A DNA stretch of 34,261 bases from Candidatus Aenigmatarchaeota archaeon (lineage in GTDB: Archaea > Aenigmatarchaeota > Aenigmatarchaeia > PWEA01): NCBI GenBank assembly GCA_003555465.1, contig PWIB01000024.1, positions 1 to 34,261 of the forward strand, in the 5' to 3' direction. This document shows, piece by piece, positions 1,488-15,956 of this stretch. Below the pieces are notes generated by a model. The model worked only from the letters and a program-made list of their open reading frames with translations, did not search any database and was not told where the DNA came from. Position 1 is the first letter of the stretch. Each line of letters starts with the position of its first letter. The position numbers were made by a program, and so were the translations under genes.

Positions 1488-4340
1488 TTAACCCTTTATT
1501 ACGCCCATGGTGTCTAGCTTTAGAACCTTTTCTACAACTCCCAAATCATGTGAAGTCTCTACTACTTCCCTCAGGTCCTTGTAGGCCCCGGGTGCTTCCT
1601 CCGCGACAACCGGCATCGAGGCTGCCTTTACAAGTATACCTTTGGTTTCTTCGAGGTCCTTCGCTACCGTTTCGCCCCAGAACTTACCTTTGGCCTTACT
1701 TCTGGACATCGTCCTCCCTGAACCATGTGGTGCAGTTCCGAAGGAAAGGTCCATTGACTTCTCCTGGCCTCGAAGTAGATAGCTTCCTTCGCCCATGTTA
1801 CCTGGTATGAGAACTGGCTGCCCGACGTCTCTGTACTTTTCTGGAACCTTTTCGTGACCCGGTGGAAATGCACGTGTAGCTCCCTTTCTGTGTACATAGA
1901 CCTCCTTCTCCCCGCCGTTTATTTCATGCTTCTCTTTCTTCGCTACGTTGTGGCAAACTCCGTAGACGAGTTCCAGATCTTTGTAATCGATATCAAATAC
2001 CTCTTCAAAGGCTTTTCTTGCCTGGTGCATTATCACCTGTCTGTTGGCGAAGGCGAAGTTTACTGCGCAGCTCATAGCCTTGAAGTATCTGTCCGCCATC
2101 TTTGAGCCGCCTGGTGCATAAACCAGCTCCTTGTCAGGAAGCTTTCTAACCAGGTTCTTGTACTTCTTCTCCGTTTCACGAAGATAGTCCGTGCAGACCT
2201 GATGGCCGAATCCCCTTGATCCTGTATGTATCATTAAGCATACCTGATCCTCATCGAGTCCAAACTCTCCGGCAACTTTTTCATTGTCGATGTTTCCTAC
2301 CTTTTCGACCTCGAGGAAATGGTTGCCTGCTCCCAAACAGCCTACCTGATCCTTGCCACGGTTTAGCGCCTTTTGTGAAACTTCGGATGAGTCTGCGCTT
2401 TCCATTCTCCCGTTTTCCTCAAGTGTTTCGAGATCCTTCTCCAGCCCGTATCCGTTTTCAACTGCCCATTTTGCGCCGTTTTCGAGAAGCTCCTTGAGCT
2501 CGTCTTCCGAAAGAGAGATGTTTGAGCCTTTTCCTACACCGGAAGGAACCTTCTGGAAAAGTACATTTATGAGCTCTTTGAGCTTTCCTCTTACCTCAGA
2601 AGCCCCCAAAGGTGTTTTAACGAGCCTGACTCCACAATTTGAAACCACAAACTCGTTGCCTATGAAGTTGTGATCAGAATGCTTTACACCTATATCGTAA
2701 ACCTTTTCCTTGGGCCTCCTTTCTATAAAAGAAATGGGTACTTTTGCAGTGAGATTGTCTTTCACTTGGATTTCCTCGGCAAATTCGTCATATCCTGGAA
2801 AGTTTTCTGAAGGTCTGGAGCCTGTCTTCCTTTCACCGTAAATACTTCTCTGGATAAACCTATCATTAATCTCAAATTCTCCTTTTATTTTCTGTGCGCC
2901 CTCACCACTCTCATACATCTCCAATGCCTTAGATGCAATCTTATCACGTTTCCGTACATTCTCGCGTTTCGCTTTTAGGTAAAGTGCTGCCTTCACAGCC
3001 TCTTTCTGTTTAGGGAGGCTATATCGGAAACCGACCTTAGTGAAAAATCTTATAAGGTTGTCTGTATCGTTTTTTACACCAAATCTAAACCGAAGATTCT
3101 CTTTGTTGGATTCAGCTTCGAACACCTCTAAGTTATTTGTCTTTATCCCTATTTCTTCCAGATGTTGTTTAAGGCCCTCCATAAACTTTTTGGCACTCTC
3201 TTTGTGTTTTTTTGATCTGTTGTGTGAGAGAGCGGGTGGATACATATTCTTATTGGTTTGTGCAGCAGGCGTGGACATCTCGGCCCCAAAAAATGTGGAC
3301 ATATAGAGGGCTTTCTGCCAATTAGTTAACCTTTCAAAATAATCTGGCAGTGTAAAATCATTTTCCCCTTTCTTTCCTTCGGGGACTCCAAGTTTCTTCA
3401 AAAGCTTCTGAAAAGCACGAGAGGTCGAACGAACACTGTATTCAGTAGTTTCAAACTCTTTCCCGTCTATATTGTGCTCCCTGTCCCTAGAATATATTTT
3501 TGAGGGTTTGACACCCAATCTTTCAATGTCCTTCTGGATCATCTCCAAGCTTTCTGGATCACCGTAGAACCAGGTCTGCTTTTCACCACTGAAGGAACCG
3601 TCTCCAGTGTGATAACCCACAAGTTTAAGAAGTATGTTGAACTTTCTGTCTGTACTTTTTAAAGGCAGTAAGTCTCTTTCTTGGAGATAGTTTAATATCT
3701 GATGGTTTTCCCCTTGAAAATCCCCCTCATCCAAAACTGTAAACTCCTCGGGACTCTCATCCTCAATTCCTTGGAAGGGGTTCACGTATACGAAAGAACC
3801 TTCCTCGAGTTCCTCCAATTTCTTCATACCGTTGGGGGTTAAAAAATTATGATCAGGAGAAGCTTTAATATCCTGACCTGTTGCAGTTTTTACCTCAAAG
3901 ACTGTCTTTTCACTCTCCGTTAGGAGCTGGATTTTTGATTCCGTCTTTCTCTCTGAGGCTACAATGGCTCTTTCTTCCTCAAGATCAGGTCTCAGTTCTT
4001 TTATTTCCCTTTTTCTACCGAACTCTAAAAGTACCTCCGAATCTCCAGACAAGCAGTTAATATCGTAGCCCACACCCCCCGGACTTATACCGCCTTCTTC
4101 CGTGTCTAAGGCCGCCACGCCTCCGATCGGGAAGCCGTAGCCTTGGTGAGCGTCGGGCATGGCTATAGAGTGCTTGTATATACCAGGGAGATGAGCTACG
4201 TTTTTTATCTGTTCGAGTGTTTTATCCTGTTTTATTCCTTTGAGAAGATCCTCGGAAGCGTAGACTCTACCTGGGACGTTCATCTCGTTCTCTTGTTCAA
4301 TTTCCCATGTATTTTCATCGATCTTTCTGAGTTCGACCAT
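1488..4340 (-). CDS. rtcB: RNA-splicing ligase RtcB, interrupted by an in-frame intein
   Basis: 950-aa ORF; RtcB N-extein 'AMPDAHQGYGFPIGGVAALD...GGISPGGVGYDIN' and C-extein 'CGVRLVKT...GCLGAGNHFLEVEKV...IHTGSRGFGHQV'. Confidence 0.93.
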   Translation of the reverse strand: MVELRKIDENTWEIEQENEMNVPGRVYASEDLLKGIKQDKTLEQIKNVAHLPGIYKHSIAMPDAHQGYGFPIGGVAALDTEEGGISPGGVGYDINCLSGDSEVLLEFGRKREIKELRPDLEEERAIVASERKTESKIQLLTESEKTVFEVKTATGQDIKASPDHNFLTPNGMKKLEELEEGSFVYVNPFQGIEDESPEEFTVLDEGDFQGENHQILNYLQERDLLPLKSTDRKFNILLKLVGYHTGDGSFSGEKQTWFYGDPESLEMIQKDIERLGVKPSKIYSRDREHNIDGKEFETTEYSVRSTSRAFQKLLKKLGVPEGKKGENDFTLPDYFERLTNWQKALYMSTFFGAEMSTPAAQTNKNMYPPALSHNRSKKHKESAKKFMEGLKQHLEEIGIKTNNLEVFEAESNKENLRFRFGVKNDTDNLIRFFTKVGFRYSLPKQKEAVKAALYLKAKRENVRKRDKIASKALEMYESGEGAQKIKGEFEINDRFIQRSIYGERKTGSRPSENFPGYDEFAEEIQVKDNLTAKVPISFIERRPKEKVYDIGVKHSDHNFIGNEFVVSNCGVRLVKTPLGASEVRGKLKELINVLFQKVPSGVGKGSNISLSEDELKELLENGAKWAVENGYGLEKDLETLEENGRMESADSSEVSQKALNRGKDQVGCLGAGNHFLEVEKVGNIDNEKVAGEFGLDEDQVCLMIHTGSRGFGHQVCTDYLRETEKKYKNLVRKLPDKELVYAPGGSKMADRYFKAMSCAVNFAFANRQVIMHQARKAFEEVFDIDYKDLELVYGVCHNVAKKEKHEINGGEKEVYVHRKGATRAFPPGHEKVPEKYRDVGQPVLIPGNMGEGSYLLRGQEKSMDLSFGTAPHGSGRTMSRSKAKGKFWGETVAKDLEETKGILVKAASMPVVAEEAPGAYKDLREVVETSHDLGVVEKVLKLDTMGVIKG
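2637..4055 (-). other. Intein inside RtcB (473 aa, with LAGLIDADG-type homing endonuclease domain)
   Basis: Starts at Cys96 'CLSGDSEVLLEFG' (codon 4055-4053); block B 'ASPDHNFLTPNG'; LAGLIDADG-like 'LVGYHTGDGSF' and 'LYMSTFFGAEMS'; ends 'HSDHNFIGNEFVVSN' before Cys+1 of 'CGVRL' (codon 2636-2634). Confidence 0.92.
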
Positions 4341-5475: not shown

Positions 5476-5654
5476 CCCCCGATAGCTCAGGCTGGCAGAG
5501 CGGTCGGCTGTAGACGAGCACCTTGGATGATTACAAAGCGATGGACGTAGCCTAAATCTGCGTCTTTTCGTATCGGTATGATGACATGGTGCTTTGGATT
5601 AGCGCCTCTGCCGATACCGACAGGCCCCGTGTTCAAATCACGGTCGGGGGACCA
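5476..5654 (+). tRNA. tRNA-Tyr(GUA) with ~102-nt intron at the canonical 37/38 position (intron ~5514-5615); CCA encoded
   Basis: Acceptor CCCCCGA/TCGGGGG + A + CCA; D-stem GCTC/GAGC; anticodon stem GTCGG (5503-5507)/CCGAC (5617-5621) with loop CTGTAG^A; T-arm CCGTG-TTCAAAT-CACGG; C1-G72 as expected for archaeal tRNA-Tyr. Confidence 0.9.
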
Positions 5655-14847: not shown

Positions 14848-14900
14848 TCCGCATAACCCCAATGTATTTATAACCTACAAATTAAAATAGTTTGACCTAT

Positions 14901-15045
14901 GGGCCGGTGGTGTAGCCAGAAGAAAAGGTTCCTTTTCATTTTGTAGGAACCTAGCTTCCTACAATGGACTAGCATCGGGGCTTTGGGAGCCTCAGACAGG
15001 AGAGGTCCTTTGGACCCCTGAATTCAAATCTCCTCCGGCCCACCA
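14901..15045 (+). tRNA. tRNA-Pro(UGG) with two non-canonical introns: D-loop intron 14918-14964 (47 nt) and T-loop intron 15003-15022 (20 nt); CCA encoded
   Basis: Acceptor GGGCCGG/CCGGCCC + A + CCA; anticodon stem GGGGC/GCCTC with loop TTTGGGA; T-stem AGGAG (14998-15002)/CTCCT (15030-15034) around TTCAAAT only after removal of 20 nt; D-loop AGCC|TGGACTA only after removal of 47 nt; 4-bp helix + 3-nt bulges at both introns. Confidence 0.9.
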
Positions 15046-15768
15046 ATCCTTTATCCTTTTTGGATTTCTTGGTTCAATTTTTCTAAGAAATTCCCTTGCT
15101 TCGTCTTTTGTAAGATAGACAAAGTTCATTGTATTATGACCCTCCCTATTGTCTTTATAGTTATAGAAAGTTGGATCGAAATCCAACCTTTCAATTAATT
15201 CTGAAATTTGATTTATCATATCTTTCGACGTACCAAAGAAGGATGCCTTTGGATAATCTTTATAACAATAACCATCAGAATCCAAATATCCTCTAAGAAA
15301 ACTCTTTATGAAGCATTCTTGGTGATCAAGTTCCTTTAATCTTACACTATAAGTCTTCTCATCCTGCCATTCTAAATATTCTGATATGAAATTCCTTATC
15401 CTCTTTGACACATATCTAACTTCTATTAGGTTCGCTTTATTGTATTTAAAAATATTTGGATCCTTATTGAACAGATCAGATAAAATTTCTTTTAGACTTT
15501 CCACATATTTATTCTCATCCCCGGAAAAATACAGCCTTATTCTGTGTCCGCCACATGACTTGTGGTAACTCCCATCACCTGCAAATACACCTAAAAATTC
15601 ACCGATTAATTCTTCACATTTATTTATGGATACTTCTTTGTAAGTCTTTCCAAAATTCTTCTTTATATGATAATAAGCTGTACTCTTACCTACGTTTAAT
15701 TCTTCACATATCTCAGTTAAGGACAAGCCATTTTCTCTGAGCTCAACAACCTTTTCTCCAAGAGACAT
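14992..15768 (-). CDS. LAGLIDADG homing endonuclease with N-terminal HTH; C-terminal ~17 aa encoded antisense to tRNA-Pro
   Basis: HTH 'NGLSLTEICEELNVGKSTAYYHIKK'; LAGLIDADG-like 'LIGEFLGVFAGDGSYH' and 'CFIKSFLRGYLDSDGYCY'; tail 'WWAGGDLNSGVQRTSPV' is antisense tRNA. Confidence 0.85.
   Translation of the reverse strand: MSLGEKVVELRENGLSLTEICEELNVGKSTAYYHIKKNFGKTYKEVSINKCEELIGEFLGVFAGDGSYHKSCGGHRIRLYFSGDENKYVESLKEILSDLFNKDPNIFKYNKANLIEVRYVSKRIRNFISEYLEWQDEKTYSVRLKELDHQECFIKSFLRGYLDSDGYCYKDYPKASFFGTSKDMINQISELIERLDFDPTFYNYKDNREGHNTMNFVYLTKDEAREFLRKIEPRNPKRIKDWWAGGDLNSGVQRTSPV
15035..15056 (+). repeat. Left direct repeat (tRNA-Pro 3' end plus downstream sequence)
   Basis: CCGGCCCACCAATCCTTTATCC; 19/22 identical to 15935-15956. 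Confidence 0.8.
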
Positions 15769-15882
15769 CTAATAATCCTCTAAAAGGTCCTCTATCACAT
15801 CGTTTACTTTCCTTCTATCCCCCTCGATTTTCATTTTCATTAATTTTTCCCATACACCCTCCGATACTTTGATGTTTTTCAT
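15769..15882 (-). CDS. 37-aa ribbon-helix-helix / VapB-antitoxin-like protein (not in ORF track), stop codon abutting the endonuclease ATG
   Basis: Read directly: MKNIKVSEGVWEKLMKMKIEGDRRKVNDVIEDLLEDY*; TAG at 15771-15769, next ATG at 15768. Confidence 0.65.
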   Translation of the reverse strand: MKNIKVSEGVWEKLMKMKIEGDRRKVNDVIEDLLEDY

Positions 15883-15934
15883 GTTTATCTTTTTATACTT
15901 CTATCTTTATATGTTTTTTGATCCAGAATCACGG

Positions 15935-15956
15935 CCGGCCCACTATTCCTTTGTCC
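15935..15956 (+). repeat. Right direct repeat (degenerate tRNA 3'-end copy)
   Basis: CCGGCCCACTATTCCTTTGTCC; preceded by T-arm-like TCCAGAATCACGG. Confidence 0.8.

Follow-up and report, generated by a model that had tools for sequence, protein, structure and literature searches.

The window, by which we mean the whole stretch of 34,261 nt that was analysed, belongs to a metagenome-assembled genome of the DPANN phylum Aenigmatarchaeota, with 631,996 bases (0.63 Mb) in 62 contigs and a completeness of 90%. Its nearest named relative, Candidatus Aenigmatarchaeota T1Sed10_94 (PWEA01000003.1), is syntenic with it over most of the shared stretch. All the evidence considered below is sequence, mostly from metagenome-assembled genomes. 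A tRNA-Pro(UGG) gene with CCA and two introns occupies positions 14901–15045 (+). Exon 1 (14901–14917) comprises the 5′ strands of the acceptor and D-stems and the start of the D-loop; exon 2 (14965–15002) comprises the end of the D-arm, the UGG anticodon arm, the variable loop, and the 5′ strand of the T-stem (AGGAG); and exon 3 (15023–15045) comprises the T-loop, the 3′ strands of the T-stem (CTCCT) and acceptor stem, and CCA. Intron 1 (14918–14964, 47 nt) lies in the D-loop between position 17 and the base preceding G18G19, and intron 2 (15003–15022, 20 nt) lies in the T-loop, at T-arm position 53/54. The sequence directly upstream (14880–14900, +; AATTAAAATAGTTTGA...) is conserved in sister species and is a probable tRNA promoter. 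On the opposite strand, a 258-aa ORF for a LAGLIDADG_3 homing endonuclease (14992–15768, −) is flush at its 3′ end with the tRNA 3′ end (15046), and its frame continues antisense into the tRNA. A 37-aa ORF (15769–15882, −) lies directly upstream of the endonuclease.

Each intron is accompanied by a BHB motif of its own. The first (14912–14965) consists of the helix GTAG/CTAC (14912–14915/14959–14962), the bulges CC^A and AA^T (14916–14918 and 14963–14965), and the inner helix GAAG/CTTC (14919–14922/14955–14958). The second (14997–15023) consists of the helix CAGG/CCTG (14997–15000/15017–15020), the bulges AG^A and AA^T (15001–15003 and 15021–15023), and the inner helix GGTCC/GGACC (15004–15008/15012–15016) closed by the loop TTT. 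The initial annotation had called both motifs relaxed, which holds for the outer side, where the helix is weak (1–2 bp), and not for the rest, as both motifs have a strict 4-bp helix, two 3-nt bulges, and an inner helix (4 bp in the first motif, 5 bp in the second). Its coordinates were all exact, and the cuts it had predicted after the second bulge base coincide in both introns with the junctions that the cloverleaf requires.

With both segments removed, ARAGORN returned a perfect 78-nt tRNA-Pro(UGG) including CCA. Removal of intron 2 alone gave a wrong Lys call, and no tRNA was obtained after removal of intron 1 alone or from the unspliced window, for which an Rfam search of the raw sequence likewise gave no match. 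A BHB can be formed at 40 of the 7,381 placements within the gene (0.54%), so that two exact coincidences with the required junctions are unlikely to have arisen by chance (~3e-5). The junctions are unambiguous, since no base is repeated at either intron boundary, and the exon borders were confirmed by syntenic intronless orthologues in two sister genomes. The fold containing both BHBs lies 1.3 kcal/mol above the minimum free energy at 37 °C and equals it at 60–70 °C. We considered whether the tRNA might be dead or its segments misassembled, as could be feared for a metagenome-assembled genome in 62 contigs; this is very improbable. The gene is the only one for Pro(UGG) found in the ~90% complete genome, which carries Pro(GGG) and Pro(CGG) genes elsewhere; all its stems are intact, including the changed T-stem described below, the upstream region is conserved across species, and the BHBs are exact. 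A second Pro(UGG) gene, by which the initial annotation would have recognized a pseudogene, was thus not found, and an assembly error, its other reservation, is unlikely given that four separate genomes have intron 1. Overall, the window carries a functional-looking tRNA-Pro(UGG) gene with two BHB introns outside the anticodon loop.

In archaeal tRNA splicing, EndA cuts the BHB and RtcB acts as the tRNA exon ligase. Both genes are present in the genome, and by this known biology the Pro(UGG) transcript would be cut at its two BHB motifs by EndA and its exons joined by RtcB. The RtcB gene lies within the window (1488–4340, −) and is interrupted by an intein; the splicing ligase thus itself carries a selfish element. 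In the genus, EndA is a single 360-aa chain, a fusion of a structural lobe and a catalytic one. Conservation of Tyr, His, and Lys is confined to the second of these, and the first is variable at the lysine position. At least three more distant relatives in the class encode the lobes as two neighbouring genes, and the alpha-beta enzymes, which are of broader specificity, have a like separate-gene arrangement (PMC12397907, PMC4090602). Broad-specificity EndA has a specificity loop (CSL/ASL) with a key lysine and cleaves non-canonical BHB motifs. The initial annotation had looked to EndA for an architecture of broad specificity, and this expectation is answered in part: the chain joins a structural and a catalytic unit, one of which has the Y/H/K triad, but the narrow alpha-prime-2 type is also two-lobed, so that the architecture alone is not diagnostic of the type. 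We infer that the EndA of the genus is broad in specificity. Two full-length EndA genes occur in the sister genome G005 (C36:8286-9362 and C26:1074-2150), with 75 and 74% identity to that of the window genome, respectively.

The Pro(UGG) gene is one of many interrupted tRNA genes in this genome. A BHB-aware finder, which splices out BHB introns and scores the resulting cloverleaves, detected 22 tRNA genes above the cut-off, and none in a dinucleotide-shuffled copy of the whole genome. Combining the finder with a looser run and ARAGORN, we counted about 36 introns among the 30 tRNA genes that could be resolved, a few intron borders being uncertain; 24 genes were interrupted, 10 had at least two introns, and two tRNA-Ser genes had three each. 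Among the finder calls, the intron borders of the Thr-like L042 and L063 are uncertain, and L042 is more likely a tRNA-Asn. Using tRNAscan-SE 2.0, densities of 0.84 introns per tRNA gene in Thermoproteales and 0.21 over all archaea studied have been reported, with a maximum of 71 introns in 46 tRNA genes (PMC8450103). The intron density of the host genome exceeds the Thermoproteales average. In the literature covered, mostly without subscription journals, we found no paper on Aenigmatarchaeota tRNA introns.

Several interrupted tRNA genes, here and in related genomes, deserve separate mention. The tRNA-Tyr(GUA) gene of the window (5476–5654, +) has a 102-nt canonical intron, was missed by the default tRNA search, and overlaps an ORF on the opposite strand. 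The second intron (44 nt) of tRNA-Val(CAC) is identical in two species (L064:1399-1552 and, in G001, L192:1102-1273). A GAA-CTTTT/AAAAG-TTTC-like stem recurs in introns of Ile, Leu, Val, and Cys genes within the genus, and these introns may form a family. A tRNA-His gene of G001 (L190:245-342) combines a 53/54 intron with TTCAAAT, against TTCGAAT in intronless relatives, as if the 3′ exon had accompanied the intron.

Intron 1 was compared among the Pro genes of related genomes. Beside KsgA, the syntenic Pro(UGG) gene has no intron in G002 or in G005; the G005 locus is the same as the one in T1Sed10_94. At the same syntenic place, G001 has a Pro(CGG) gene carrying the same 47-nt D-loop intron (46/47 identical); the intron is identical at 47/47 positions in Pro(CGG) of G002 and at 45/47 in Pro(UGG) of G001 and of G003. 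A different intron of 63–67 nt, also with a BHB, occupies this site in both Pro genes of G004. The identity of intron 1 across four species and two isoacceptors was 91–100%; other introns at shared positions were mostly 36–67% identical, with a few at 79–93%, and the DNA of the neighbouring KsgA gene was 72–74% identical to that of the window. The simplest reading is that intron 1 is a mobile BHB intron that has recently spread among Pro genes and species of the genus, as the window copy is 96–100% identical to those in Pro genes of sister species, in which the flanking genes are only ~72% identical.

The T-arm half of the gene appears to have had a different history. The endonuclease ORF matches PF14528 (E=1.5e-14) and retains both LAGLIDADG motifs with their acidic residues (FAGDG and LDSDG; alignment A1). 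Its GC content and GC3 are 0.32 and 0.29, respectively, against 0.47–0.49 and 0.52–0.58 in neighbouring genes, and a composition step marks the insertion (GC 0.31 vs ~0.47). This endonuclease was absent from five congeners. Beyond it, the native 3′ end of tRNA-Pro lies displaced at 15927–15943 (+); its sequence (AATCACGGCCGGCCCAC) is exactly that with which the Pro(CGG) and Pro(GGG) genes of this genome terminate. In G002, the PPDK gene follows directly after the tRNA-Pro 3′ end, which represents an empty site, and with the insert taken out the two window flanks are collinear with it. The displaced end was recognized by inspection of the flank and verified by comparison with this empty site; a direct-repeat search with present tRNA ends had missed it because the T-stems differ. 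The window gene has the T-stem AGGAG/CTCCT; CCGAG/CTCGG or CCGTG/CACGG stands in its place in every Pro(UGG) and Pro(CGG) gene seen in the genus, and a 53/54 intron is absent from the other Pro genes of the genus that were examined.

The displaced native end and the collinear empty site together indicate that a segment of ~0.9 kb entered the T-arm and supplied a new intron-bearing 3′ end. By this reconstruction, the inserted or replaced segment would span 14998–15926 and comprise the new T-arm with its intron, the new 3′ end, the endonuclease, and the small ORF; exon 3 was probably supplied by the inserted element. Because the 5′ strand of the T-stem was also replaced, the crossover on the left must have occurred upstream of the presumed cut. 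The remnant begins inside the T-loop, 3′ of position 53/54, and by itself does not prove the T-loop intron to have been absent from the native gene; its absence is suggested by the congeners. T-loop introns at 53/54 with the AGGAG stem occur in Pro(UGG) at L141, from a distant family in the class, and in a Val gene (L144, read directly), so such termini exist in the class and are available as donors. A donor combining the window-type T-arm with the endonuclease was not found.

These observations are probably best explained by two processes, namely a mobile D-loop intron and a LAGLIDADG element that swapped the T-arm and 3′ end of a functional, spliced tRNA-Pro(UGG). The element would have been copied into the T-arm of a native, CACGG-stemmed tRNA-Pro gene; its own tRNA 3′ end, with the AGGAG/CTCCT T-stem, the 20-nt BHB intron at 53/54, and CCA, would have restored the gene; and the native 3′ end would have been pushed ~0.9 kb downstream. 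The endonuclease likely cleaves an allele or paralogue that is free of the element, within a conserved tRNA arm, and repair of the break likely copies the endonuclease together with the adjoining, often intron-bearing, tRNA terminus. What we propose as new, and what was absent from the initial annotation, is that the T-loop intron belongs to the endonuclease insertion, which would account for the T-loop half of the gene.

It is also conceivable that both introns arrived by ordinary tRNA intron transposition, as in Thermoproteales, and that the endonuclease was inserted beside the tRNA later by chance. Intron 1 in G001, G002, and G003 does move without a visible endonuclease nearby, and 53/54 introns are found in Pro genes of another family (L141 and L145), where the flanks of L141 are without such an endonuclease. 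We nevertheless regard this course of events as unlikely at the window, since the native 3′ end beyond the endonuclease and the different T-stem point to insertion into the T-arm, at the intron.

A second locus bears on the same question. In G028 (L260/L320), an endonuclease lies at the 5′ end of a tRNA-Gln(CTG) gene whose D-arm holds an intron of 29 nt. Across the endonuclease from this gene lies an 18-nt remnant, GTCTAGTGGTCAAGGATA, identical to the spliced tRNA-Gln over the intron site. As this remnant spans the intron site without an intron, the native tRNA-Gln lacked this D-arm intron, contrary to what chance insertion beside an already interrupted tRNA would lead one to expect. At the sequence level, it is G028 and not the window that directly proves the native gene to have had no intron at the breakpoint. 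In G111, which shares its upstream flank with G028, the tRNA-Gln gene has neither the endonuclease nor the D-arm intron; the same is true of the tRNA-Gln gene of G112, whose flank matches G028 only partially. At a third locus (L272), the tRNA end is repeated exactly, over 25 nt, on the far side of the endonuclease.

The endonuclease family was then surveyed across the class. The first query covered 15046–15768 only, which contains no tRNA-encoded residues, and matched relatives at tRNA genes; a profile built from seven relatives found matches in 93 of 156 genomes. The last columns of the profile hold a few tRNA-encoded residues, a small possible bias that does not apply to the first query. Score and frame length, and not neighbourhood, decided which 70 free-standing copies were examined. 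A detectable tRNA was present within 60 nt of the endonuclease 3′ end in 40 of these, mostly overlapping it, and the tRNAs were of many kinds. As a control, 14 of the 516 ORFs in the window's own genome (all of those ≥150 aa) were near a tRNA, giving an expectation of 2.7% (P ~5e-44); this control replaced EndA loci, which are poorly suited because EndA is often near tRNA-Phe. Such linkage is not chance, which again counts against later, fortuitous insertion beside the tRNA. In the remaining 30 copies, no tRNA could be detected at the 3′ end. Of the 40 linked loci, 3 had a clear duplicated tRNA end, against 0.5 expected from a swapped control; a match at L315, 230 nt away, was left out of this count, as it may be part of another tRNA. 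Most linked loci no longer show a duplicated tRNA end. No relatives of the endonuclease were found in viral contigs. In the sister species G001, a 319-aa ORF of the same family (L307, C121) is flanked by EndA and tRNA-Phe, the tRNA adjoining its 5′ side. Two long ORFs on C57 and C35 of the window genome (L230-L232), 1,817 and 1,068 aa in length and with LAGLIDADG domains, are probably inteins.

A displaced tRNA end resembles the attL/attR of elements that target tRNA genes, and the exact 25-nt repeat at L272 would also be expected if an integrase-type element had used the tRNA gene as an attachment site, the endonuclease being cargo or a leftover after deletion. We consider this improbable, even more so than ordinary transposition. 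The ~0.9-kb insert contains no ORF of note besides the LAGLIDADG ORF and the 37-aa ORF, leaving no room for an integrase, and the two tRNA ends in the window have diverged and are not identical repeats. Moreover, the linked endonucleases are commoner at tRNA 5′ ends than at 3′ ends (27 vs 13), a preference that is, to our knowledge, unusual for integrases. Under the terminus-swapping model, related endonucleases would do likewise in many tRNA genes of the class, at either the 5′ or the 3′ end.

Multiple, non-canonical BHB introns in tRNA genes are known from Thermoproteales, and the tRNA-Pro(UGG) of Pyrobaculum islandicum has introns at 25/26 and 56/57 in addition to a canonical one (PMC4090602). 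The window gene is alike in isoacceptor, in having two introns outside the anticodon loop with BHB-type junctions, and in that introns are common to different genes and species. It differs in its sites (D-loop and 53/54), in the T-arm half that would have come with the endonuclease insertion, and in its host, a DPANN aenigmatarchaeon, so that the initial annotation's tRNA-Pro(UGG) with two non-anticodon introns does lie outside Thermoproteales, a case that it had said would be unusual. Large-scale tRNA intron transposition, with near-identical introns in different tRNA genes and species, was described by Fujishima et al. (2010), as summarized in a field review that states the mechanism of archaeal tRNA intron transposition to be unknown (PMC4090602). 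In contrast to that work, a candidate vehicle is visible here, namely a homing endonuclease at the tRNA end together with a displaced native terminus.

The closest likeness in the way of working is to the mORFs of fungal mitochondria, which bring a replacement gene terminus to atp6, atp9, cox2, and nad3 in Glomus and to atp6 in Allomyces; they are mostly LAGLIDADG, the native end lies ~1 kb downstream in atp6, and the hybrid gene is transcribed (PMC3630166). Both in the window and at the tRNA-Gln of G028, an endonuclease ORF similarly stands beside an inserted new gene end, with the native end displaced. The likeness is one of operation, and no common descent is claimed: here the setting is an archaeal chromosome, the target is a tRNA gene and not a protein gene, the replacement terminus carries a BHB intron, and either gene end can be targeted. 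Phage T4 SegB is another free-standing homing endonuclease adjoining tRNA genes, located in a tRNA region that it spreads by intronless homing (PMC2988022); unlike the window endonuclease, it is a GIY-YIG enzyme of a phage, targets a tRNA intergenic region, and involves no tRNA introns.

We propose that elements of this kind swap tRNA termini and thereby install introns, which is a plausible route of archaeal tRNA intron gain. The before-and-after series of empty site, insertion, displaced end, and new intron points to a testable mechanism for intron movement in archaea, and it extends a tRNA intron density like that of Thermoproteales to DPANN archaea with very small genomes, many of whose interrupted tRNA genes escape standard tRNA finders. 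The linkage of one endonuclease family to many tRNA genes suggests that the mechanism may be general in one archaeal phylum. We give about even chances to the wider proposition that there is a phylum-wide class of LAGLIDADG endonucleases at tRNA ends that cut tRNA arms and install termini with BHB introns, such that homing would drive the gain and movement of tRNA introns.
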